From the IMG/VR virus record IMGVR_UViG_3300031692_000009, positions 1 through 40,166 of that record: a stretch of 40,166 bases of DNA; one strand, given 5' to 3'. The stretch's first letter is position 1. Each line of letters begins with the position of its first letter. Shown piece after piece: positions 1-40,166 of the stretch. This DNA is from a virus. The notes under the pieces are model-generated. The model was not told the origin of the DNA. It was given only the letters and a program-made list of their open reading frames with translations, and did not search any database. The position numbers and the translations under genes were made by a program.

Positions 1-127
1 ATCTGATACTTGAGCAGTGTTTTGACTCCATCTAAATTGAATCTTACCCCCTGTTTTACCTGTTTTGACTAAAGCCTTTTCATTTATAAAGGCAGCCGTT
101 GAACCGTCACAACCATATGAAATATCA
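1..127. repeat. Terminal repeat, left copy (circular join)
   Basis: Bases 1-127 are identical to 40040-40166. The minus-strand fibre frame reads through the join without interruption, so the two copies are one locus seen twice. The length, 127, equals a common maximum k-mer in short-read assemblers, so I read it as the overlap of a circular contig and not as a biological direct terminal repeat. The unique circle is 40,039 bp. Confidence 0.9.
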
Positions 128-1683
128 GTTGTTAAGTTATGCCTTGATATCCTTGTATTTGTATCAGCATTTCCAGTTGTTGAAGTTGCTGGACCTATAC
201 AAATTTTAGTTGTTAACTGTTCAACCGATCCAGTCAACGCCCATTCACTTTTAAAATCAGCATTTGCAGCCCCGGAAACTGCTAAATTAAATTCTATTTC
301 AAATATTCCGTTTGATGGTAGATGACAAAACAATTCATCATCATTTCCTAAAACGCTATCATTATTGACAGTTTGTGTCTCAATTTTTTTTATTATTTTT
401 GGGATATCCCATGATTCAAGTTTATTCCCTTGTGTATTGCTTATCATGAAATCAGTTATAAGTGAAAATGAATTTTCATTATAAGCCCCTAAATAAATAC
501 ATCCTCCTGCACTTGAATCAATAGTTGTTTCATGTTCAAGAATCTTTATAGCTTCACCATCTTTTTTAAAAATAGCCCTTATTGTATCAATATTTTTTTC
601 AAAATAAATTTGGAATCTTTCGTTAATTAACAAACTATTAACAAATGTTAAGTAATAATCAGTTAAAACCCCACCTTCGTATACTTCTAGATAAAAATCA
701 TCATTATCAACAGAAACCTCAATATAATTATCAGCATCTGACCACCAAACAATAGAAGATGTAAACCCTTCTTTTTTGCAATATACTTCAAATTTAGCAA
801 TAAAACTTATAATACTGCAATATAAATGTAATCCGGCCTCGTTTCCTGTCTGGTCGAAGGGGTCAAGCCTTTGGATTCCTAACTCTCCCAGGATTGGATC
901 GTTATATAATAAATAAGAATCATAAGCTATATCAAAAGCATTTTCCCACCCAGTAACCGTCCCTTGATATAATTGGAATGAATTTATATAGCCAGCTTGA
1001 TCGGGATCTTTTCTAACTAGCTGGACCAATTGAATCGATATATATTCGTTCTGAGCGTTTATAACCGTATAAGCTTGACAATTAATAAATGTAATATCAT
1101 CCCATCCGGCCGGACTTCCATTAGTTGTAAAATCTTTTTTCTGTGGGAAAAATACCCACCATCCAGATCTAGGATTTGAAAAATTACTAGGATCATATGT
1201 AATGCTATAATTATTTGAATTATCAGTCCCGAGTTTTAATGTTAATTGTGTGAATTTCGTATAATCTGAAATATAAACAACAAAGGCAATATTATCGTCA
1301 GAATCGGATGCCGATCCATCATTAAAAACCTCTAGATCAATACTTGAAATAGTTTTGTAAATTCCAATATACCCAGCAACATCATCATTTTCAAGAAATC
1401 TAACACTGCTTTGGCCTATTGAATAATTAGTTGTATCATCCGACAAAGTACTACTAGCAGTCAAAGGGGTCCATAATGAACTATCTTGAAACTGGTCAAC
1501 CTCAAATACATTAGTCTGGTAAAAAACTTCTTTATAATCGTTTAATCTAACAGACTGAGATCTTGCCATTTCTTGATCTAAAATACCAACAACTCGATGT
1601 TCTTCATTTTTAACAGAGGCGTTTATTGCCTGCCCTGATCCATTAGTAAAACTTAATGGGGTAAATTTACTAGCCTCAGCCAT
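1..1683 (-). CDS. Fibre-like / head-decoration structural protein (main part; continues across the join)
   Basis: On the circle this gene is 577 codons long, starting at ATG 1683 after GGAGGGTG and ending at 39989. It is beta-rich with few charged helices. Residues of about 60-225 form a jelly-roll or carbohydrate-binding-like domain, with an SDSDD segment followed by a YIS strand and a WDDI segment. A second sandwich with a paired WW motif lies around 240-410, and a Ser/Thr/Gly-rich domain follows to the C-terminus. The same SD-x-DD...YIS...W-x-x-I pattern occurs inside the larger tail-tube protein at 34968-36053. It lies between the MuF/portal genes and the scaffold gene, which favours a head fibre or decoration protein over a tail-tip fibre. 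Its start overlaps the stop of the upstream gene. The function is inferred from composition and position. Confidence 0.75.
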   Translation of the reverse strand, partial: MAEASKFTPLSFTNGSGQAINASVKNEEHRVVGILDQEMARSQSVRLNDYKEVFYQTNVFEVDQFQDSSLWTPLTASSTLSDDTTNYSIGQSSVRFLENDDVAGYIGIYKTISSIDLEVFNDGSASDSDDNIAFVVYISDYTKFTQLTLKLGTDNSNNYSITYDPSNFSNPRSGWWVFFPQKKDFTTNGSPAGWDDITFINCQAYTVINAQNEYISIQLVQLVRKDPDQAGYINSFQLYQGTVTGWENAFDIAYDSYLLYNDPILGELGIQRLDPFDQTGNEAGLHLYCSIISFIAKFEVYCKKEGFTSSIVWWSDADNYIEVSVDNDDFYLEVYEGGVLTDYYLTFVNSLLINERFQIYFEKNIDTIRAIFKKDGEAIKILEHETTIDSSAGGCIYLGAYNENSFSLITDFMISNTQGNKLESWDIPKIIKKIETQTVNNDSVLGNDDELFCHLPSNGIFEIEFNLAVSGAANADFKSEWALTGSVEQLTTKICIGPATSTTGNADTNTRISRHNLTTDISYGCDGSTAAFINEKALVKTGKTGGKIQFRWSQNTAQVSD

Positions 1684-5813: not shown

Positions 5814-7076
5814 CTATTTTGGTATTCTCCAACCTGATTGTAAAATTATGTCGTCTAATGCATATCTATGAGCGTCTATATGATGGTTATTCTTATCTGG
5901 ATATTGTTTTATCCAATTTCCATTTTTGTCCTTATCAAAAGTATAGGAAACAATTTCCTGATAAGTTCTCGGGCATCTTTTCCTGTCAATATAAATAGCG
6001 TTAAGGTCTGCCAACCATTCAATACCATGTCTTACACTATCAGGCCCCTTTTTACAACAAACGGCGTTAGTATCGTATTCAGTAACCATTGTATTAACTG
6101 TTCTTGGCTCCTGTCCATCACATTTAATAATTTCCCACGGTCTTAACCTTTTATTTAACTTCTTACAAAGGGATGCCGTTCCCATTCCGTACTCATGAAA
6201 CTCGTCAAAGGTCCATATTGATTTTTGATTTTGCTTATAACATAATTTATTATATGCAGTTGGATCGACTGTAAAACCAAAGTCAACGGCCTGTCTAGTA
6301 TATTCAAACATAAATATTTCTTCATCTGTCAATGTAATTTCTTTTACATTTTTAAAGATCTCTCCACCAATACCGGTGATTATTCCCAAATATTCATTTT
6401 CATATGCTCTTAGATCCTGTTCTTTAAGATCTTCGGCCATTTGAATAAAAGTAGCCCCAAGCCATTCTGGATCAACATCTAAATAACTTGAATGATGAAC
6501 TATTCGACCTCTTTTTTCAATAGCAGCCTCTTCATTGACCCAATGACTAGCAATAGGAGGGGGGTTAAAAGTCATTATACAAATAGCCTCTCCACCCCTA
6601 AAGATAGATTGATTTACATTTCTGATTTCTTCCATTCCTTCATATTGGTCAAATTCTTCCCACCATCCATATTTTACAAACCCACTATCAAAGGACATAC
6701 TTTTAATTTTTGTTGGCTCGTCACAACCATGAAATACAATTTTTTGCCCGGACGGCTTAAATGTCATTTCCATAGGTGATTTTATACAGTGCCAATCTTT
6801 TTCCACTCCTAACTGTTTTAAGGCCCATAGAAATTTATTGTATACTGTACCGGATAAAGTATTTTTAACCTTCCTCATGGCTACACAATGAGTAATTAAA
6901 CCCTTTGTATAATAATCCTCCATCATTCCATAAATAATTATTTCAGCAGCAAAGGAGGACTTTGTTGAACCCCTTCCCCCTTTGCATATTAATTCATATA
7001 TTTGATTATCAAGAACTTTATCTATTAAATGATGAAAAGGCTTGGCAATTAAATCCTCTAAATAAATATCTTTCAC
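5814..7076 (-). CDS. terL: Large terminase subunit (ATPase-nuclease)
   Basis: 420 residues, usual for the PBSX/Terminase_3 type. Walker A is CKGGRGSTKS at residues 31-40, an acidic Walker B follows at about 135-145 (GWWEEFDQYEG), and a coupling motif MTFNPPP lies near 165. The RNase H-like nuclease half shows VDFGFTVDP with its catalytic Asp, CDGQEPRT, and a final D-A-H-R-Y-A-L motif. The enzyme cuts concatemeric DNA and pumps it through the portal. The GTG start overlaps the small terminase stop by four bases (GTGA), a typical coupling. Confidence 0.95.
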   Translation of the reverse strand: MKDIYLEDLIAKPFHHLIDKVLDNQIYELICKGGRGSTKSSFAAEIIIYGMMEDYYTKGLITHCVAMRKVKNTLSGTVYNKFLWALKQLGVEKDWHCIKSPMEMTFKPSGQKIVFHGCDEPTKIKSMSFDSGFVKYGWWEEFDQYEGMEEIRNVNQSIFRGGEAICIMTFNPPPIASHWVNEEAAIEKRGRIVHHSSYLDVDPEWLGATFIQMAEDLKEQDLRAYENEYLGIITGIGGEIFKNVKEITLTDEEIFMFEYTRQAVDFGFTVDPTAYNKLCYKQNQKSIWTFDEFHEYGMGTASLCKKLNKRLRPWEIIKCDGQEPRTVNTMVTEYDTNAVCCKKGPDSVRHGIEWLADLNAIYIDRKRCPRTYQEIVSYTFDKDKNGNWIKQYPDKNNHHIDAHRYALDDIILQSGWRIPK

Positions 7077-7531
7077 TTATTCTCACGCCTTCGGCTGAAT
7101 GTATATTTATCCTCTGTCCCTGCACCTTTTTCAAAGTCTGGATAATGTTTTATTAATATCTCTATAGCTTTTAAAGCCTCTCTTATACTAAATATATTGT
7201 CTAATCCTTCATTTTTTGATTTTCTCATTACTGAGGTTAAAAAACTTAAAATTTCTTCTAACTGAGCTTTTTTATGCTTTTTTGCATAATCCCCAGTTAG
7301 TTGGGAGATCCTTAGTTTTATTTCTTTCTTTTTTAATGCTCTATTCCCGGCCTCTGATAAATTTTTTCTGTGCCTTGTTGTCAATTCATCTAATGGAATA
7401 CTATTCTTTATTAAGTTAACAAATCCAGCATTATAAGCACTTAATACATTATCAACCGTTTGAGAATACCATTGACAAAAAATTTCTTCCTGGGCTGTAA
7501 TCGTATAAATTATATCAATTACTTTTCCCAT
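7073..7531 (-). CDS. terS: Small terminase subunit
   Basis: A 152-residue protein with a TAQEEIFCQWYSQTVDNVLSAYNAGF-type helix-turn-helix start, a QLTGDYAKKHKKAQLEEILSFLTSVMR middle and a C-terminal helix with EALKAIEILIKHYP, the architecture of the Terminase_2 family. It binds the packaging site and recruits the large subunit encoded directly downstream. GGTGATTAATT precedes the ATG. I do not identify the packaging site itself. Confidence 0.88.
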   Translation of the reverse strand: MGKVIDIIYTITAQEEIFCQWYSQTVDNVLSAYNAGFVNLIKNSIPLDELTTRHRKNLSEAGNRALKKKEIKLRISQLTGDYAKKHKKAQLEEILSFLTSVMRKSKNEGLDNIFSIREALKAIEILIKHYPDFEKGAGTEDKYTFSRRRENK

Positions 7532-8429: not shown

Positions 8430-9155
8430 TTAGCTCCTTTTTCCTGCATGATAATATAATTTTTCAATAATACCAGGCCAATTATGATTGTTTTCTTTTA
8501 CTATTTTCTTAACATCTGAGATATAAAGTTTTCCCCAGTCAGATAATTCATTTAACATATCTTCATAATCAAATATATCTTTTTTAGCTATTAAATCTTT
8601 ATTATATTGGATGCAGTCATTTCTAAAAGCAGTAAAACCGCCTTTTTCTTTTAATATCTGTGATGGACAATTCTTTTTATACCACCAATAATGACCAACT
8701 ATAGTTTTTTTCCAGTTATCACCTTTTAAATTAGGTAAGTTATTCATTAAATACACATTTAATTTTATCATATTTAATCTAGTAGTTTTCCAGTTACCAT
8801 CCTTATTTAAACAGCCCTCGATACCAATACTAGTTATATTCCCCGAATCGCTATCGTGGCCGTCTGTACAATGCCATCCATTATAAATTAATGGCATTGT
8901 TTGTATAATACAATGATCGTCAACCGTTAGATGCCAACTTAAAGATCTTAAACGAACACTTTTTAAATATTTTACATTTGCTTTGGCATCTGCTCCTTTT
9001 TTCCAATTGTCGGTATTGTGGTTTGTTATATATTCCAATTCTGTTTTTATCCATCTACTATAATTTTTTCGTCTAGGTAATAAATCAATTATTACAGGAA
9101 CACCATATATTGATCTATCCCTTATAATACCATCTTTTATTAACAATTCGTCCAA
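8430..9155 (-). CDS. Endolysin: N-acetylmuramoyl-L-alanine amidase (Amidase_2/PGRP fold)
   Basis: A 241-residue protein. The zinc ligands of the T7-lysozyme fold are visible: His46 in NHNT, His155 in VGHYWWYKKNC, and Cys163, the last two separated by eight residues as in the family. Other family marks are SWHLTVDD near 73-80 and GIEGCLN at 111-117. The enzyme cuts the bond between muramic acid and the stem peptide of peptidoglycan at host lysis. The last 50 residues look like a small wall-binding or linker extension. There is no signal peptide, so release would depend on the holin encoded just upstream. Confidence 0.92.
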   Translation of the reverse strand: MDELLIKDGIIRDRSIYGVPVIIDLLPRRKNYSRWIKTELEYITNHNTDNWKKGADAKANVKYLKSVRLRSLSWHLTVDDHCIIQTMPLIYNGWHCTDGHDSDSGNITSIGIEGCLNKDGNWKTTRLNMIKLNVYLMNNLPNLKGDNWKKTIVGHYWWYKKNCPSQILKEKGGFTAFRNDCIQYNKDLIAKKDIFDYEDMLNELSDWGKLYISDVKKIVKENNHNWPGIIEKLYYHAGKRS

Positions 9156-9658: not shown

Positions 9659-9862
9659 TTAAAAATTCTCCTTATCTGTAGGATTGTTTAAAAAGCCAAA
9701 CAATACTAATATTGACAAAAAACTATCTACTATGATTTTTTGTTCTGTCTCAGTTATTCCTATTCCCTCAAATACTCCAAAGGTATTTAATATAATTAAT
9801 ATTAAAGAAATAACACTCAACCAAACAACCTTACTTTTAAATCTTTGTTTATTATCATACAT
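9659..9862 (-). CDS. Holin, phi LC3-like
   Basis: 67 residues from ATG 9862, which follows AGGAGGATTGGGATC; a longer frame to 9925 has no site. Two membrane segments (residues about 11-31 and 43-59) are joined by a short polar turn with GITETEQ, and the C-terminus has the NPTDK signature of this holin family. It would form lesions in the membrane and release the amidase. It lies close upstream of the lysis genes it serves. Confidence 0.88.
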   Translation of the reverse strand: MYDNKQRFKSKVVWLSVISLILIILNTFGVFEGIGITETEQKIIVDSFLSILVLFGFLNNPTDKENF

Positions 9863-9917
9863 GATCCCAATCCTCCTAATTAATATTTTTTTTTGATCTG
9901 ATCCTTGAATATACATT

Positions 9918-10124
9918 TTATTCATTATCTTTTACAGGGGTATTAATATCCTTTGCTAACTTCCCAAGAAGTTCAAAAATTTCATCTGGATGCTTTTCAG
10001 CTCCATTAATAACCTTTCCATAAAATTCAAATTTCTGTGTAGTTAAAAGGCTAACAGCAGCCAATAAATATTTGCCTTCTTTTTGTGTAGTATTGATATT
10101 TTCCATGTTACATTTTTCAATCAT
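9918..10124 (-). CDS. Hypothetical small protein
   Basis: A 68-residue protein with GGAGATATATAAA before ATG. One weakly hydrophobic helix (GKYLLAAVSLLTTQ), then a Lys/Glu helix. It lies directly upstream of the holin in the same unit, but similarity to known holins or antiholins is not evident. Confidence 0.6.
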   Translation of the reverse strand: MIEKCNMENINTTQKEGKYLLAAVSLLTTQKFEFYGKVINGAEKHPDEIFELLGKLAKDINTPVKDNE

Positions 10125-12205: not shown

Positions 12206-12235
12206 ATTCTTTCCATTCCTCCATTATATTAATAC

Positions 12236-12280
12236 ATCTTAGCTCCCTTATCTTTTTAATGTGCAAAAGGAAGCTAAGAT
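12236..12280 (-). promoter_or_regulatory. Leader hairpin A (ATCTTAGCTTC-type)
   Basis: ATCTTAGCTCCC (12236-12247) pairs with GGAAGCTAAGAT (12269-12280), 11 of 12 positions. The stem extends inward with CTTTT/AAAAG. It lies 30 bases before the zinc-protein start. The same arms recur at 12964-13028 ahead of another zinc-protein gene. A leader control element or a protein site is likely. Confidence 0.55.
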
Positions 12281-12477
12281 GATAACATTGTAAATTTTCT
12301 AATTTTTAATCGGTAAAAATTGATGCAAAATCCCGACGATATTTTTATGGTCTGGTATAGAAATATCAAAAACTTAGTTGTTTTTTTATACTGGAGAACT
12401 GCCAAAATAACCAGTGTTAACTTTGAATGTTAGTGGTCGGTTACCACAGGAATTAAGTTAACGAAATTTCCCCCGCT
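12281..12477 (-). ncRNA. Structured non-coding stretch between tRNA-like RNA 1 and leader hairpin A
   Basis: No convincing gene lies here. Stems visible on the minus strand are GTTAACTT/AAGTTAAC (12416-12423 with 12455-12462) enclosing GTGGT/ACCAC (12433-12437 with 12443-12447), and ACTGG/CCAGT (12390-12394 with 12411-12415). The set suggests a multi-hairpin RNA continuous with the tRNA-like element just upstream, or a long structured leader for the zinc-protein gene. No conserved intron core motif was seen. Confidence 0.4.
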
Positions 12478-12531
12478 TGTCATAAAGGGATTTGAACCCT
12501 ATACCCCCGGACGGCACGACCTGTTATGACA
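12478..12531 (-). ncRNA. tRNA-like RNA 1 (acceptor stem plus T arm)
   Basis: Read on the minus strand, TGTCATAA pairs perfectly with TTATGACA (8 bp). The 3' half holds a T arm, AGGG-TTCAAAT-CCCT, with a classical seven-base T loop. Only 23 bases lie between the 5' acceptor strand and the T arm, with no D arm or convincing anticodon arm. Stacked length is 12 bp, as in a normal acceptor/T domain. No CCA is encoded (A then GCG follow). A canonical tRNA is excluded; the regular domain argues that the element is functional. Confidence 0.6.
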
Positions 12532-12566
12532 ACTTTCTATATAAATATTAAATAGTGTTTAACCTG

Positions 12567-12595
12567 ATTTACATTCCACTTATTTACATTCCACT
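12567..12595. repeat. Short direct repeat
   Basis: ATTTACATTCCACT occurs twice, at 12567-12580 and 12582-12595, with one base between them. It lies between the zinc-protein gene at 12647 and tRNA-like RNA 1. It could be a two-site operator or a slippage product; nothing else supports a function. Confidence 0.5.
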
Positions 12596-12646
12596 ATGGT
12601 CAAATTAATACTTTTAATTCCTGGGGGAAAATACTATTTAATAAAA

Positions 12647-12946
12647 TTAATCATCATCTGGACCTAGTAAAGCCATAGCATCAGGATACAAAACCCAATC
12701 TTCAACGCCACAATGTATCAAAGAATCAAGTAATTTGGCTTTTTCTTTTAGTTCTTCATACTCTTTTTTTTCTATAACAATTTTTGCTGTACTCATTTCC
12801 CTTTTTGCCCTCCTATATTCTCTATCATCATATAAGCATGTACCACACTTTACGCGGTCTTTTATTGCTGGCTTTCTTTTACATTGAGTGCAAATACCAG
12901 ATGCCTTAAGATCTCTATATCTTTTTTTATTGTCTTTCTTATCCAT
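12647..12946 (-). CDS. Zinc-finger protein with C-terminal coiled coil
   Basis: 99 residues from ATG 12946 (AAAAGGTG six bases upstream; the GTG nine bases earlier lies in that site). The N-terminus reads RYRDLKASGICTQCKRKPA, then C-x2-C at KCGTC, a familiar four-cysteine knuckle of phage and HNH-associated proteins. A basic helix (YRRAKREM) and a coiled region IEKKEYEELKEKAKLL follow, and the end is acidic. No HNH catalytic residues are present. Probably DNA- or RNA-binding. It is preceded by leader hairpin B. Confidence 0.65.
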   Translation of the reverse strand: MDKKDNKKRYRDLKASGICTQCKRKPAIKDRVKCGTCLYDDREYRRAKREMSTAKIVIEKKEYEELKEKAKLLDSLIHCGVEDWVLYPDAMALLGPDDD

Positions 12947-12963
12947 TAATAACACCTTTTAAT

Positions 12964-13028
12964 TATCTTAGCTTCTTGGATTAGTGTTCCATAAGGTAAC
13001 ATTTTCATTTTATAAAGAAGCTAAGATA
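12964..13028 (-). promoter_or_regulatory. Leader hairpin B (ATCTTAGCTTC-type)
   Basis: TATCTTAGCTTCTT (12964-12977) is perfectly complementary to AAGAAGCTAAGATA (13015-13028), a 14-bp stem with a 37-base loop. It ends 18 bases before the start of the 99-residue zinc protein. Arms match hairpin A over at least ten bases while loops differ, so the stem sequence is what has been kept. Confidence 0.6.
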
Positions 13029-13149
13029 GATATATTGTTTTAAGATACTTTTTGTATATCTCACCCACCCATATATACTTATGATATCATCTGCTAAGAA
13101 TAATTTATTTTTAATATGATAATCACTGATCTATCAAATTATCAATTTA

Positions 13150-13230
13150 CTATTCCCTATCATCCCCACACATGTATTTTTTAAAGTCTTGGACATCAGG
13201 CCATTGACTACTAACATTTACATACCACAT
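13150..13230 (-). CDS. Possible 26-residue peptide
   Basis: An ATG frame with an amino-acid mix like a real protein (MWYVNV, then SQWPDVQDFKKYMCGDD) lies between tRNA-like RNA 2 and leader hairpin B. No good ribosome-binding site is present, only AAAGAT some 20 bases upstream. The stretch 12947-13439 otherwise has no gene. Confidence 0.25.
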   Translation of the reverse strand: MWYVNVSSQWPDVQDFKKYMCGDDRE

Positions 13231-13273
13231 AGTTAATATAAATCTTTGCTAAATTGGTTACCCTTTCAATCTA

Positions 13274-13337
13274 TTATATAAGGGGGATTTGAACCCCCAG
13301 CCGGGGGAATGAACCCCAGCCCTACCACGTTATATAA
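13274..13337 (-). ncRNA. tRNA-like RNA 2 (acceptor, T arm and one extra arm)
   Basis: On the minus strand TTATATAA at the 5' end pairs with TTATATAA at the 3' end. The T arm is GGGGG-TTCAAAT-CCCCC, perfect over five pairs. The 31 bases between hold a seven-pair stem, GCTGGGG/CCCCGGC (one G-U pair; 13314-13320 with 13300-13306), closed by a seven-base loop TTCATTC. That loop would present CAT at the anticodon position after a U33-like T, but residue 37 is a pyrimidine. There is no D arm. The element is 64 nt. Confidence 0.6.
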
Positions 13338-13409
13338 CTTCTTTCAATGTACTCTAACACAATAAAAACTATAATTACAGACTTCTCTCAATAATATTCC
13401 CTTACTATT

Positions 13410-13457
13410 TCAGGGAGAGGATTTGAACCTCCAAGGCCCTTATAATATACCCCCTGA
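13410..13457 (-). ncRNA. tRNA-like RNA 3 (shortest, overlaps a stop codon)
   Basis: On the minus strand TCAGGGG pairs with TCCCTGA (7 bp, one G-U), and the T arm is GAGG-TTCAAAT-CCTC (it could extend by one G-U pair at the cost of the acceptor). Only 19 bases separate the two halves, so neither D nor anticodon arm can exist. The element is 48 nt. Its 5' strand lies in the last codons of the 51-residue gene at 13440-13595, whose TAA falls in the middle segment. Confidence 0.55.
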
Positions 13458-13595
13458 CTTTTTTTTTAAATTAGCCCTAATAACTTTTAGTTCATAATCT
13501 TTATTCCTTTTCTGTATTTTCTTTGCTTCACTCTCCGGCCATCTAGTTGAATAATCTTTATTAGTGTAAACATCGTCATGTTTCCTCTCTGCCAA
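13440..13595 (-). CDS. Small basic protein, 51 residues
   Basis: TTG start at 13595 with a perfect GGAGGTGATTGATT upstream. The protein is highly charged (AERKHDDVYTNKDYSTRW, then EAKKIQKRNKDYELK) and ends in LKKKSGGIL. It resembles short phage proteins with a basic helix; no family can be named. Its 3' end is shared with tRNA-like RNA 3, so folding of that RNA could protect or process the mRNA end. Confidence 0.6.
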   Translation of the reverse strand: MAERKHDDVYTNKDYSTRWPESEAKKIQKRNKDYELKVIRANLKKKSGGIL

Positions 13596-13731
13596 AATCA
13601 ATCACCTCCACTAACATAATGATATCATAAAGGTACTTTTGAAGCAAGATACAACTATGTATGTTTTTACTAACATATATATACAGTTACTAAACTAAAT
13701 CTAGTAATAGATTAATTTGATCTTTCTTTTT

Positions 13732-14300: not shown

Positions 14301-16472
14301 TTATAAAATTAATTTAATAAAAAATTCTGTAGTTTTAGTTCTATTAACTCTAAATATAACACTTGTTTTCTTAAGTTCTTTTGCTAAAGTAAATTTATTC
14401 AATAATCCCTGTGATGGTAGGTAGTTAAATAATTCATTTGCTGTATACCAACTTCCTTCATCTTCCCCAGGGTATAGATCAAAAGATTCCTCAATTAAAA
14501 GTATTTTTTCTGATTTATTCAAATATTGCATATTTATTTGATTTATTTCTTTTACCTCTTCATAGTCAAATTTATAAGATGCTTTTCTTAAATATAGGTT
14601 ATAAAAATAGCCCCATAACATATCAACATCTATTTTAGTCTTTTTATCAAAGTCTATACAATTAAGGGTTAAATACCTTCTAGTTCCTGTTAGATCTCTT
14701 AAATACTCGACATCGTTTGTTGTTGCTGCTAAACATACACGCCTTTTTTGTACAATCGCCGTTGGTGCATAAGGTATTCTGAATTTATCTCTTGGAGCTG
14801 TTATAAAATTCTTAATAGCTTCTTGATCTGATTTTTTAAAAGTTGTTGCAATTTCTCCCATTTCAACTAAAATATTAGAAACTGTTTCCATTATTGAATC
14901 TTTATTGGTTAAATCCAAACTCCTTCCAGATAGAAAATAATTATCCCTAAAATGATTTGGTAATAAATTTTGTAACCATGTAGTTTTCCCAATAAATTGA
15001 GGCCCCTGCAACACAAGAATATAATCACAGGCGATCGAATCATTATCCTTAGAACATCCAATATAAACCATCTGTAATAAAAATTTACCAATATATTTAT
15101 TTTTATATTTATTATTACTAATAACAGTGTCTAATAATTTATTAAATATCTCTTTATCTGGGTTATTGCAATAATAAGAATGGCAGCTTTTTAAATAATC
15201 TTCCCAGGGATTATATTTATTTTTTTGACCGATAAAGGTTAAATTACTTTCCAAATGCTTTTCATTTATATTGAAAAAATGTTTTTCACATAAATTTTTA
15301 ATATTAATAACTTGCCTGGACAATATATCAAGATATTTATTATTTTCAAAAACTTCATAATCCATTTTTATCATATTATATTTTATATTTAAGCTATAAT
15401 GATTAAGCAAGCATGTTATATTTTCCTCAACAGGTAATACCTTTATTTTAGTAATTGGCGGCTTTTCTTCTACATCTTTATAAAATTGAAAATAGTCTGA
15501 TAATCTTTTTTTTCTTTTTTCAAGATCTGTAAACTCTACAAAAACATAATCAGGATTCCACTTTATATTTAATAGATCTAAATTTTTGTTATAATCTTCC
15601 TTGGCCCTATTAAAGTCTATTCCTAAATTAAACTTATCATTAATAAATTTTGCAGCAGCAAAGTTATTAATATCCTCTTTTAAAGCCACAAATTTTATTA
15701 AATCTCCTCCTTGATTGCAGCCGAAACAATACCAGTAATTTTGTAAAGTATTTATTTGTAAACTGTCTGTTTTTTCACTATGAAAAGGACAATTGATTTT
15801 ATTGCTATGATTTACACTCAATCCATAATATGATATTATGTCAATAATATGTAATTGATTGTTTATATATGAAAATATATCACTAGATGAATCTTTGTTA
15901 TATTTTCTTTTTTCATTAGGTTTTATTTTTTTTACTTTTTCCAATTCTTTATATAAATATATTAAATCTTTAGAATTTTGATTTATTTCAAAATGTTCAT
16001 TATAGACATTTCCTGTTAATACAAAGGCTTTTGAATGAGAATATATTTCAACTCCACATTTTTGCGGCTCATTTTTCCATTTTTCATTTAGTTGATACAT
16101 TCTTACATTTAGCCCTTTTTTATCTTTGAAGTTATTAGTAATATTAAATATTGCATGAAGCCCCTTGCCTCTCCTTGATATCTCTAAGTATGGATTTTTT
16201 ATATTTCCTAAAAAGCTTTTGGCCCATTCTCTCAACTCCATATCATCATTAAAACAATCATCCAGATCGACTATTACATAATCATTATTAAGACAAAAAG
16301 CAATATCATATTTATTATTTGTATTTTTTATTATTTCATCAAATGTATTCCAGTTATCTGGGTTTGTTGCATCTGTTTTTATTCCTTCTAAATTACGTGG
16401 TATTCCTTCAAAAGATAGCATCCATTGGTCCAATATTTTTAATTCATCTGGAATATTATTATAATTATTCAT
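14301..16472 (-). CDS. Replication protein: AEP-like primase-polymerase, CHC2 zinc finger and VirE-type helicase
   Basis: 723 residues from ATG 16472 (GGAGG six bases upstream). The N-terminus has the acidic IVDLDDC motif at 67-73, then RRGKGLHAIF near 100-110, as in bifunctional primase-polymerases (AEP). A DnaG-type zinc finger follows: Cys228-x2-His231 (CPFH) and Cys249-x2-Cys252 (CFGC) with GGDLIKFV after it. The C-terminal half is a virulence-E-like SF3-type ATPase with Walker A GPQFIGKTT (490-498), an acidic VEMGEI motif near 530, and AATTND and GTRRYL later. It probably primes and unwinds DNA at the adjacent origin. No separate DNA polymerase gene is seen. Confidence 0.88.
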   Translation of the reverse strand: MNNYNNIPDELKILDQWMLSFEGIPRNLEGIKTDATNPDNWNTFDEIIKNTNNKYDIAFCLNNDYVIVDLDDCFNDDMELREWAKSFLGNIKNPYLEISRRGKGLHAIFNITNNFKDKKGLNVRMYQLNEKWKNEPQKCGVEIYSHSKAFVLTGNVYNEHFEINQNSKDLIYLYKELEKVKKIKPNEKRKYNKDSSSDIFSYINNQLHIIDIISYYGLSVNHSNKINCPFHSEKTDSLQINTLQNYWYCFGCNQGGDLIKFVALKEDINNFAAAKFINDKFNLGIDFNRAKEDYNKNLDLLNIKWNPDYVFVEFTDLEKRKKRLSDYFQFYKDVEEKPPITKIKVLPVEENITCLLNHYSLNIKYNMIKMDYEVFENNKYLDILSRQVINIKNLCEKHFFNINEKHLESNLTFIGQKNKYNPWEDYLKSCHSYYCNNPDKEIFNKLLDTVISNNKYKNKYIGKFLLQMVYIGCSKDNDSIACDYILVLQGPQFIGKTTWLQNLLPNHFRDNYFLSGRSLDLTNKDSIMETVSNILVEMGEIATTFKKSDQEAIKNFITAPRDKFRIPYAPTAIVQKRRVCLAATTNDVEYLRDLTGTRRYLTLNCIDFDKKTKIDVDMLWGYFYNLYLRKASYKFDYEEVKEINQINMQYLNKSEKILLIEESFDLYPGEDEGSWYTANELFNYLPSQGLLNKFTLAKELKKTSVIFRVNRTKTTEFFIKLIL

Positions 16473-16489
16473 CAAAATCCTCCATTCTT

Positions 16490-38141: not shown

Positions 38142-39134
38142 TTAACTAGTTGTTAAACCTGTTATCTTTCCATGATATTCCTCTGCTCCATAATCTAACC
38201 CAGCTTGAAAATAGATTTGCTTTGCATATGAAGCCCCATCCCTTGCTTTTACTTCAACAAGGACCAAAACACCATTAACAGGACAAAGTGTAATTCTAAC
38301 AACAGACATTTCAACAAAATAAATGGAATCTGTTGCCATGCTAGGATCACATAAAATTGCGATCTGTGCAAAGTCAGTGTAAATTACATCTATTTTTGCT
38401 CCACCTTCGGTCCTTGATTGTGGCGTAAATTCATATAAAGCGGCCAAAGATTGCCTCTGAAAACTATTACATACAGCAACAACATCTATTAAAGGCGCAC
38501 CACTATCAAACATTGCTTTAATACATGAATTTACATGTACAGTTGTTAACGCCGTTGATCCAGCAGCCACAGCGTTAGTTGATATACCATTTGCTAGACC
38601 TCGAGTTTTTGCAGCAGTTGAAACGGATGCGGCTCCTTGATAAGTACCCCTTAAACATGAATAATTAAGATCGGATGCCATTCCTTTCATGTTTGCCATT
38701 ATTTGGAAATCCAATTCATTCTGGACCTGGTTACTAGTAGCCCCAACATTAACACCACTAGCAGCCCCATCTATATTATGGGAACCTTCCAAACTAATTC
38801 CATGAGTTCCTGTAGTTGACAGTTTTTTATAACTGACCTCGGCAACCCTTTGAAATATTTGACATGTATTTGTATCTTGTCCCCTAGTAATTGTATTAGC
38901 CGTTTGACCTGTTACGCTGTCAGCCTCTGTTATTGATGGCTGTGAACCTGCACCAGTATCAACAGGGACAGCAATTGGAAATTCAAAACTATTAACAACT
39001 TTTACGACTCCACTATTTAATTGACCACTATCGGTAATAGGTGAACCAATAGCATTAATAAAAGGGGTTTGTCTTGCACCCACGGCGAAAATATCACCTA
39101 AATAATTTAGATCTTCGCTATCACAATAAGCCAT
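38142..39134 (-). CDS. Major capsid protein, HK97-fold (SU10-like/DUF5309 type)
   Basis: 330 residues from ATG 39134; the TTG at 39143 is excluded by the GGAG just upstream of it. The start YLGDIFAVGARQTPFINAIG, then a paired VKVVNSFEFPIAVPVD strand region, a QVQNELDFQIMANMKGM helix, IDVVAVCNSFQRQSL and a late VRITLCPVNGVL-type strand agree with SU10-type capsids. The scaffold gene lies directly upstream, as required for prohead assembly. No maturation protease gene is seen. Confidence 0.8.
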   Translation of the reverse strand: MAYCDSEDLNYLGDIFAVGARQTPFINAIGSPITDSGQLNSGVVKVVNSFEFPIAVPVDTGAGSQPSITEADSVTGQTANTITRGQDTNTCQIFQRVAEVSYKKLSTTGTHGISLEGSHNIDGAASGVNVGATSNQVQNELDFQIMANMKGMASDLNYSCLRGTYQGAASVSTAAKTRGLANGISTNAVAAGSTALTTVHVNSCIKAMFDSGAPLIDVVAVCNSFQRQSLAALYEFTPQSRTEGGAKIDVIYTDFAQIAILCDPSMATDSIYFVEMSVVRITLCPVNGVLVLVEVKARDGASYAKQIYFQAGLDYGAEEYHGKITGLTTS

Positions 39135-39165
39135 TTTTCTCAACTCCTTATATATTTTTTAAAAT

Positions 39166-39825
39166 TTATTTTGCTGTTTCTTCAATTGCTTTTATTTCTC
39201 TTCTTAACTGTTGACGTTCTAAAAGATTTCCAGCAGGAATTCTATTATATTGTTCAACTAGTTGTTCCTTTGTATTTGCTGGTTTGTTTGGATCTCCTTT
39301 AGGTGGGACCCCTCCAGTAACTACTTTTCCAAAACTGAAATCATATTTTTCTTTTAATGGATCTATGATTTTACTAGCATTTAAAACCTGGTCACCCTCA
39401 ATAATTACATCATCAAAGTTAACAACATTTAATAATAAATCAATTCCTTTGGCTCCCTCATTTGCAAGAACTTGAGATAATAATGTTTTTTTGTTTAAAA
39501 CCTCTAGATCCTTTTTATATTGAGTTTCTGTTTTTGTTAATTCTGTTTTAAATTCAGCCTCTTTTTTTGCAAGTTCCTTTTTTAAATCATCATCAGTTAT
39601 CATGTTATTTCTTTCTTTTAACTGTAATTCATAAGCTTCAACTTTTTGTGTTAATAATTTTGCCTCTTCATTTTTTTGGTTAAATACTGACTTTGGAATT
39701 ATTTTAGTTGGATCGTTTGGAATATGTTCAACCTCACCCATAACAGCCTTAAGCATTGAAATGCTTCCGTTTTCTTCCAATTTTTTATAATTCTCTTCAC
39801 CTAATAATTTTTTTAACCATTCCAT
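39166..39825 (-). CDS. Scaffold protein
   Basis: 219 residues. GGAGGAATAAAAATT precedes ATG. The sequence is typical of phage scaffolds: WLKKLLGEENYKKLEENG near the start, a long coiled coil (about 50-120) rich in Glu/Lys, a short FDDVIIEGDQV strand region and a Gly/Pro-rich GGVPPKGDPNKPA linker before a helical end. It lies immediately before the capsid gene and would be lost from mature heads. Confidence 0.85.
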   Translation of the reverse strand: MEWLKKLLGEENYKKLEENGSISMLKAVMGEVEHIPNDPTKIIPKSVFNQKNEEAKLLTQKVEAYELQLKERNNMITDDDLKKELAKKEAEFKTELTKTETQYKKDLEVLNKKTLLSQVLANEGAKGIDLLLNVVNFDDVIIEGDQVLNASKIIDPLKEKYDFSFGKVVTGGVPPKGDPNKPANTKEQLVEQYNRIPAGNLLERQQLRREIKAIEETAK

Positions 39826-39903: not shown

Positions 39904-39984
39904 GGAAATAGAGGAATCGAACCCCTTTTATATCGCAGATGCATACTCGGGCATCGTGTAAATATAAAGCTCCATCACATTTCC
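39904..39984 (-). ncRNA. tRNA-like RNA 4 (after the fibre gene)
   Basis: On the minus strand GGAAATG (5') pairs with TATTTCC (3'), and the T arm is AGGGG-TTCGATT-CCTCT with one G-U pair (the acceptor is six or seven pairs depending on how the join is drawn). In the 44-base centre TTTATAT pairs with ATATAAA (39962-39968 with 39927-39933), enclosing GATGC/GCATC with an eight-base loop CCGAGTAT. No D arm with G-G exists, and the loop has no anticodon-like U33. It begins four bases after the fibre stop codon. At 81 nt it is the longest of the four related RNAs. Confidence 0.6.
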
Positions 39985-39988
39985 ATTA

Positions 39989-40166
39989 TTACATTTTTAT
40001 CTTAGTAATCTTCATATAACTACTAGAGGAAACCGCGGTATCTGATACTTGAGCAGTGTTTTGACTCCATCTAAATTGAATCTTACCCCCTGTTTTACCT
40101 GTTTTGACTAAAGCCTTTTCATTTATAAAGGCAGCCGTTGAACCGTCACAACCATATGAAATATCA
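39989..40166 (-). CDS. Fibre-like structural protein, C-terminal end (continues from position 1)
   Basis: This stretch reads ...SQVSDTAVSS-type end, then SSYMKITKIKM and TAA at 39989-39991, in frame with the gene at 1-1683 once the circle is closed. Positions 40040-40166 duplicate 1-127. The last 17 codons unique to this side complete the 577-residue protein described at 1-1683. Confidence 0.8.
   Translation of the reverse strand, partial: DISYGCDGSTAAFINEKALVKTGKTGGKIQFRWSQNTAQVSDTAVSSSSYMKITKIKM
40040..40166. repeat. Terminal repeat, right copy (circular join)
   Basis: Exact copy of 1-127; see that entry. It marks the closure of the circle. Confidence 0.9.

Follow-up and report, generated by a model that had tools for sequence, protein, structure and literature searches.

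Minimal tRNA-like elements at gene junctions of phage operons: possible cutting marks for host tRNA-maturation enzymes

The window analysed here, the whole 40,166 nucleotides of IMG/VR record IMGVR_UViG_3300031692_000009, holds a complete phage genome of 40,039 bp. Positions 1-127 are identical to positions 40040-40166, a terminal direct repeat of 127 bp, and the genome is circular or circularly permuted. A 577-aa ORF of the head region, hidden by the break in the record, spans the circular junction and reads through to a stop at 39989. A giant GOLLD-like RNA in the seemingly ORF-free stretch 325-1676 was considered and rejected, as that stretch is the 577-aa ORF running over the junction. Four tRNA-like elements (TLE1 to TLE4) lie among the genes, which also include terL and portal genes assigned by domain searches:

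1-1683, minus strand: first part of the 577-aa ORF, the gene upstream of TLE4 (127-bp terminal repeat and ORF read-through)
7073-7531: terS
8430-9155: endolysin
9659-9925: holin
12477-12532, minus strand: TLE1, acceptor TTGTCATAA/TTATGACAA of 9 bp, 23-nt insert CAGGTCGTGCCGTCCGGGGGTAT, T stem AGGG/CCCT, T loop TTCAAAT (finder; fold)
12647-12955, minus strand: 102-aa ORF with a T7 gp5.9-like RecBCD-inhibitor domain, between TLE2 and TLE1 (Pfam 1.5e-6, PHROGs)
13216-13244, minus strand: solitary CRISPR repeat-like unit (28/29 to a CRISPR-DR14 type repeat; Rfam 42.8 bits, gathering threshold 45)
13273-13338, minus strand: TLE2, acceptor of 8 bp plus a G-U pair, 31-nt insert, T stem GGGGG/CCCCC, T loop TTCAAAT (finder; fold; ARAGORN in mitochondrial mode)
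13410-13457, minus strand: TLE3, acceptor TCAGGG/CCCTGA, 19-nt insert, T stem GGAGG/CCTCT, T loop TTCAAAT (finder; blastn to Streptococcus phages; exact 22-mer scan)
14301-16475: primase/helicase gene
38142-39143, minus strand: major capsid protein gene (Pfam SU10_MCP 5e-44)
39166-39825, minus strand: scaffold protein gene, the next gene after TLE4 (Pfam Phage_scaffold 3e-14)
39904-39984, minus strand: TLE4, acceptor GGAAAT/ATTTCC, 52-nt insert, T stem AGGGG/CCTCT, T loop TTCGATT (finder; ORF map over the junction; syntenic counterpart in relatives)
39989-40039, minus strand: end of the 577-aa ORF, with its stop at 39989 (ORF read-through over the circular junction)

The late operon's coding strand carries all four elements. 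TLE1 to TLE3 lie at the head of the block of late genes on the minus strand, between the primase/helicase gene and the lysis and terminase genes, and TLE3 overlaps the end of a 53-aa ORF (13440-13601). TLE4 sits between two head genes, 4 nt past the stop of the 577-aa ORF and 79 nt ahead of the scaffold ORF, with the capsid gene following. In the 102-aa ORF between TLE2 and TLE1 a Cys-rich part is N-terminal and the RecBCD-inhibitor-like domain C-terminal. At 12235-12281 and 12950-13042 stand two inverted repeats that share their arms (ATCTTAGCT...AAGCTAAGAT), each just upstream of the start of a small zinc-ribbon-like gene on the minus strand; they look like duplicated leader or operator hairpins.

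The window was searched for a seven-base T loop (TTCRANY) on a T stem of 4-5 bp in which all bases pair, with an acceptor stem of 6-9 bp stacked on it and 15-75 nt between. Exactly four matches were returned, all on the minus strand, at the four places named in a preliminary description of this DNA; in 200 dinucleotide shuffles the mean was 0.09 matches per 40 kb and the maximum 2. The acceptor length of 6-8 bp given earlier has to be revised for TLE1 (9 bp) and TLE2 (8 bp plus G-U). For TLE1 and TLE2, folding gave back the acceptor stem and T arm; TLE3 has an alternative hairpin as its minimum-energy fold, and the result for TLE4 is ambiguous. Single-sequence z-scores were modest (-1.3 to -1.7 for TLE1-4), and the case for structure is therefore comparative rather than energetic.

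The elements share with canonical tRNAs the acceptor stem, the T arm with its TTCRANY loop, and the G53-C61 pair, which is invariant in 13 of 13 sequences of alignment A9 though the finder made no demand for it. The D arm had been described as absent; no D stem is present, and every insert contains a GG which, read by eye, could serve as a D loop. A 7-nt anticodon loop on its own stem is absent from TLE3, and the earlier statement that the elements cannot decode is not certain for TLE2. Within the insert of TLE2 a second hairpin, GGGG-TTCATTC-CCCC, places CAT at the anticodon positions of a 7-nt loop; ARAGORN in mitochondrial mode called it a Met(cat) tRNA, and it may be a D-armless tRNA. In standard mode ARAGORN found no tRNA gene in the window. 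At the gathering threshold no Rfam family was found in the window, including tRNA (RF00005) and GOLLD/ROOL, and at a permissive threshold only weak matches appeared, save for the near-threshold CRISPR repeat. For tmRNA, a 17-nt match scored 15.1 bits against a threshold of 47, and ARAGORN called no tmRNA in the window.

The CRISPR repeat-like unit is present in a single copy, on the strand of TLE2 and 28 nt downstream of it, and a pattern search gave an expectation of 0.00. C. difficile phages have matches to it, and the unit hints at a Clostridia host. Judged from its sequence, it is a candidate RNA anti-CRISPR (Racr); type I-B is absent from the main text of the Racr paper. A weaker repeat-like stretch on the minus strand at 12567-12610, with a 15-nt tandem duplication (AAGTGGAATGTAAAT), lies about 33 nt upstream of TLE1. 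A second, degenerate repeat near 12582-12610 makes a weak case, matched in quality by 1 of 400 shuffles. No CRISPR repeat was found in the relatives compared, and the idea that repeat and tRNA-like element form one unit was dropped on that ground, their proximity being left as coincidence or local synergy.

Single-sequence searches with primase, terminase and capsid found few close relatives or none, and genome-contig scans found no prophage relatives; the relatives used here were found via terL, capsid and the 577-aa protein. In two of them, IMGVR_3300035211_000046 and IMGVR_3300031379_000026, the gap that separates the 577-aa homologue from the scaffold gene contains AGGGTA-AATGGTTTA-TGATAG-TTCGATT-CTATCA-TACCCT, a 40-nt version with other stems. 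In these two relatives a sequence that is unrelated to TLE4 but folds alike thus occupies its position. The distant Blautia phage Montmirail carries GTGCGTGTG-19 nt-GGGGG-TTCGATT-CCCCT-CACACGTGT in the equivalent gap, 4 nt past its minor head gene and before its scaffold gene. A relative whose 577-aa homologue is 33% identical has a full cloverleaf (L149:1027-1100; z -3.8) with a 10-bp acceptor and D and anticodon loops both of 4 nt. Two further close relatives have no element in the same gap, which says that an element at this position is dispensable and that its effect is one of tuning rather than essential. No counterparts of TLE1-3 were found among the relatives compared.

The 40-nt version led to a family of minimal elements, 41-45 nt long, in which an acceptor stem, a 10-nt D-loop-like bulge (AATGGTTTWA) and a T arm (TTCGATT) follow one another with no D stem, no anticodon arm and no room for one. 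The bulge, in our reading, corresponds to A14 ... G18 G19 ... A21 of tRNA numbering. Three further minimal elements occur in phages Javan199 and EJ-1, with bulges AATGGTTTAA, AACGGTACCA and ATTGGTATCA. Viral contigs were then scanned for the bulge and T loop at a fixed spacing that is impossible in a real tRNA, with pairing demanded only at the closing G-C, and at least 120 stretches were returned. Among the matches listed, 60 distinct ones have enough flank; in 38 of them the T stem reaches 5 bp or more, and in 24 the acceptor does so as well. With the acceptor strand slid along the sequence as a control, 0 of 240 trials reached 6 bp. Allowing a 1-nt junction, both stems are present in 29 of the matches listed, at least six of which are near-identical streptococcal copies, leaving about 23 distinct elements. 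Two different minimal elements occur in one viral contig, IMGVR_UViG_3300000350_000001 (L201:207-245 and L221:751-791), as in Javan199, and several per genome are possible. Rfam found no family in ten loci with minimal-type matches, except ordinary tRNAs elsewhere in one locus.

Thirteen equal-length members from the matches listed have 98.1% paired cells in the stems, a figure biased upward since the members were picked for having stems; the variety of the pairs is the informative part. Two-sided changes occur at 11 of the 12 pairs, and the covariation score is 1.19, as compared with 0.22 for shuffled and at most 0.20 for slid alignments. A covariance model built from these 13 (R1) found the relatives' TLE4-position element, which had been left out of the building, at E 7.5e-9, and across 1.5 Mb it matched only that element and the streptococcal minimal elements. 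It gave no match to TLE1-4 of the window, save for a T-arm fragment of TLE4 (E 0.047), and TLE1-4 belong to the class by architecture, not by this model. The existence of same-architecture elements with compensatory changes elsewhere bears out the selection on structure that had been suggested, and supports the view that the elements are real, non-canonical and structure-selected.

The paired changes also bear on two other accounts. Elements such as these might act as DNA, as attachment cores for satellites or for integrases that use tRNA 3' halves, or as packaging or replication signals; tRNA 3' halves are the classic attachment cores, and several of the elements lie near terS. Since the two strands of the acceptor covary, 5' with 3', and the stems differ at each site, no shared DNA core exists, and we consider an action at the DNA level very improbable. 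Alternatively, the elements might be tRNA genes that are odd or in decay and that persist by drift or because they decode. The CAT hairpin of TLE2 is in keeping with such an origin, as is the streptococcal site upstream of terS, where the range extends from true tRNA-Ser and tRNA-Lys to anticodon loops of 4-6 nt. Stems that stay paired as their sequences change, minimal forms with no room for an anticodon arm, and the rejection of TLE1-4 by ARAGORN and Rfam all speak against decay. We hold tRNA decay to be an improbable explanation, and for the class as a whole pure decay was rejected because the stems covary, an objection that largely refutes it.

That streptococcal site was reached from TLE3. 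Its blastn match led to pneumococcal phages in which the element is annotated tRNA-OTHER, between an ArpU/DUF1492 gene and terS, and an exact scan showed the 22-mer GGCCTTGGAGGTTCAAATCCTC to be identical in TLE3 and the pneumococcal elements. Between ArpU and terS, related phages carry a true tRNA-Ser or tRNA-Lys, elements with 4-6-nt anticodon loops, or forms with a 30-nt insert. Streptococcal homologues, gathered for the covariation analysis by sequence and not by pairing, have 98.9% paired cells, with three pairs changed on both sides. Streptococcus phage phiARI0746 (L013) has, in the interval after ArpU where other phages have tRNA-like elements, a tRNA-Ser at 432-522 followed by an annotated GOLLD RNA at 1102-1196. 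In 80 terL-anchored contigs, four of six finder matches lie within 1.2 kb upstream of terL on the same strand (P 5e-5); three of these four are called tRNAs by ARAGORN, and most of the 80 contigs are without such an element.

Minimal elements, too, are placed largely at gene junctions. Among the matches listed, and counting the near-identical streptococcal copies (at least six), the nearest upstream ORF is co-directional in 23 of 29 cases and the nearest downstream ORF likewise in 23 of 29; distances of -9 to 25 nt from the upstream stop and of 26-62 nt to the next start are common among the elements listed. One stands between a head maturation protease and a major capsid gene; other neighbours include a polymerase processivity factor, an anti-restriction protein and a regulator, and most are unknowns. 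Several minimal elements lie inside ORFs or far from them, not at operon junctions. The EJ-1 element (L156:4775-4819), which has near-identical copies in many streptococcal phages, is in the early region and overlaps the end of a 91-aa conserved phage ORF. The preliminary description had placed its elements beside a replication origin and listed priming of DNA synthesis among possible roles; the setting, at junctions between genes of phage operons, speaks for a role in mRNA processing rather than in priming or replication.

Placement in polycistronic units therefore makes the cutting of messages the simplest role, and it seems to us about evenly balanced whether the window's elements and their minimal counterparts serve host RNase P and RNase Z as tRNA-like marks for cutting polycistronic phage mRNA. 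Each element folds as the acceptor/T-arm half of a tRNA, and in minimal members the D-loop-like bulge would dock on the T loop to give a tRNA elbow. RNase P of the host would then cut at the 5' end, and RNase Z or 3' exonucleases at the 3' end, excising the element. In this way the 3' end of the upstream gene would become defined, and the downstream gene would acquire a new 5' end that has its own stability, the downstream genes being scaffold and capsid in the case of TLE4 and anti-defence, lysis and terminase genes in the case of TLE1-3. Decoding would not be needed, and the anticodon arm could be lost or become degenerate.

Two further roles share part of this evidence. The elements could be structural caps that are never cleaved, the fold shielding the upstream 3' end or the downstream 5' end from exonucleases or insulating the genes at the junction. 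Such caps would show the same gene-junction placement, a stable coaxial stack of 11-13 bp would suit them, and RNase P model substrates need no D-loop elbow; a plain hairpin would suffice for a cap, though, and the A..GG..A bulge and T loop, both conserved in the minimal family, point to a reader of tRNA elbows. We regard capping without cleavage as fairly unlikely. The excised elements might, on the other hand, work in trans as stable small RNAs, as decoys or titrants of RNase P, EF-Tu, modification enzymes or tRNA-targeting defence nucleases, or in the manner of Y RNAs. The elbow and T loop are gripped by many host factors (PMC4810234), and TLE1-3 adjoin the RecBCD-inhibitor-like gene and the solitary CRISPR repeat. 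A decoy has no need of a place at gene junctions, however, and minimal forms offer no anticodon to anticodon nucleases; among the 30 phage ORFs scanned, which include part of the small ORFs, no Ro60/TROVE domain was found, though a partner could be encoded by the host. A role in trans is in our judgement unlikely.

Cutting by the enzymes of tRNA maturation, the reading we prefer, has precedents. The CCA-adding enzyme also reads an elbow that lacks an anticodon, and an A at the discriminator position follows many minimal elements, two of which (L182 and L200) appear by eye to encode CCA. Artificial minimal substrates of RNase P consist of an acceptor stem and T arm with a bulge, the same minimal architecture as here; the phage elements differ in being natural, in covarying, and in having a D-loop-like bulge. 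In tmRNA the tRNA-like domain comprises an acceptor stem, a D loop without a D stem, and a T arm. The minimal forms resemble it in these parts, and TLE2 has a sub-threshold Rfam T-arm match to tmRNA (RF00023), but at only 41-45 nt they lack the mRNA-like part, the pseudoknots and the long connecting helix. GOLLD and ROOL, found near phage tRNA islands (PMC12286853), are also phage noncoding RNAs of the same late-operon region; unlike the present elements they run to hundreds of nucleotides and have covariance models of their own, and none is found in the window.

Closer parallels come from transcripts that are processed at tRNA-like folds. mascRNA and menRNA, of MALAT1 and NEAT1, are tRNA-like folds with a degenerate anticodon part within a longer transcript, and act as cutting marks for RNase P and RNase Z (for the principle, see PMC4810234). 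They are eukaryotic, one per RNA, and have a fuller cloverleaf, whereas the viral elements comprise many unrelated sequences, have a minimal form without D stem or anticodon arm, and would be cut by analogy. The trait in common, a tRNA-like fold at a gene boundary in a gene array, is present in the phage elements. More generally, RNase P and RNase Z both contact the tRNA elbow, and there are long noncoding RNAs whose ends are processed by RNase P through tRNA mimicry (PMC4810234). In the tRNA punctuation of mitochondrial polycistronic transcripts (PMC4394434), a tRNA fold between co-directional genes likewise serves as a processing mark; the mitochondrial marks are decoding tRNAs, and the minimal phage forms have no anticodon.

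The use of a tRNA or tRNA mimic as a processing mark is thus already known from mitochondria and eukaryotic noncoding RNAs; the phage RNA family is possibly large and new. The earlier remark that no such phage RNA family had been described agrees with our searches, which found no Rfam family and, in the open literature, no paper on phage elements of this form. We tentatively propose, leaning marginally to the doubtful side, that the minimal elements represent a widespread and undescribed class of viral RNA: a tRNA cut down to its elbow (acceptor, 10-nt D-loop bulge and T arm in 41-45 nt), set between co-directional genes and cut by the host's tRNA-maturation enzymes, with longer forms such as TLE1-4 as variants. 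This would amount to tRNA punctuation without decoding.

If cleavage is confirmed, these elements would represent a general viral way to set mRNA ends by means of the host's essential tRNA enzymes, and would perhaps be among the smallest natural tRNA mimics that retain the elbow. They would also give RNase P and RNase Z a clean family of substrates, and supply cutting elements that are portable and very short. For the phages themselves, the proposal would account for the stray tRNA-OTHER annotations ahead of terminase genes, and it brings within reach of testing why lone tRNA-like sequences occupy fixed places in phage late operons.
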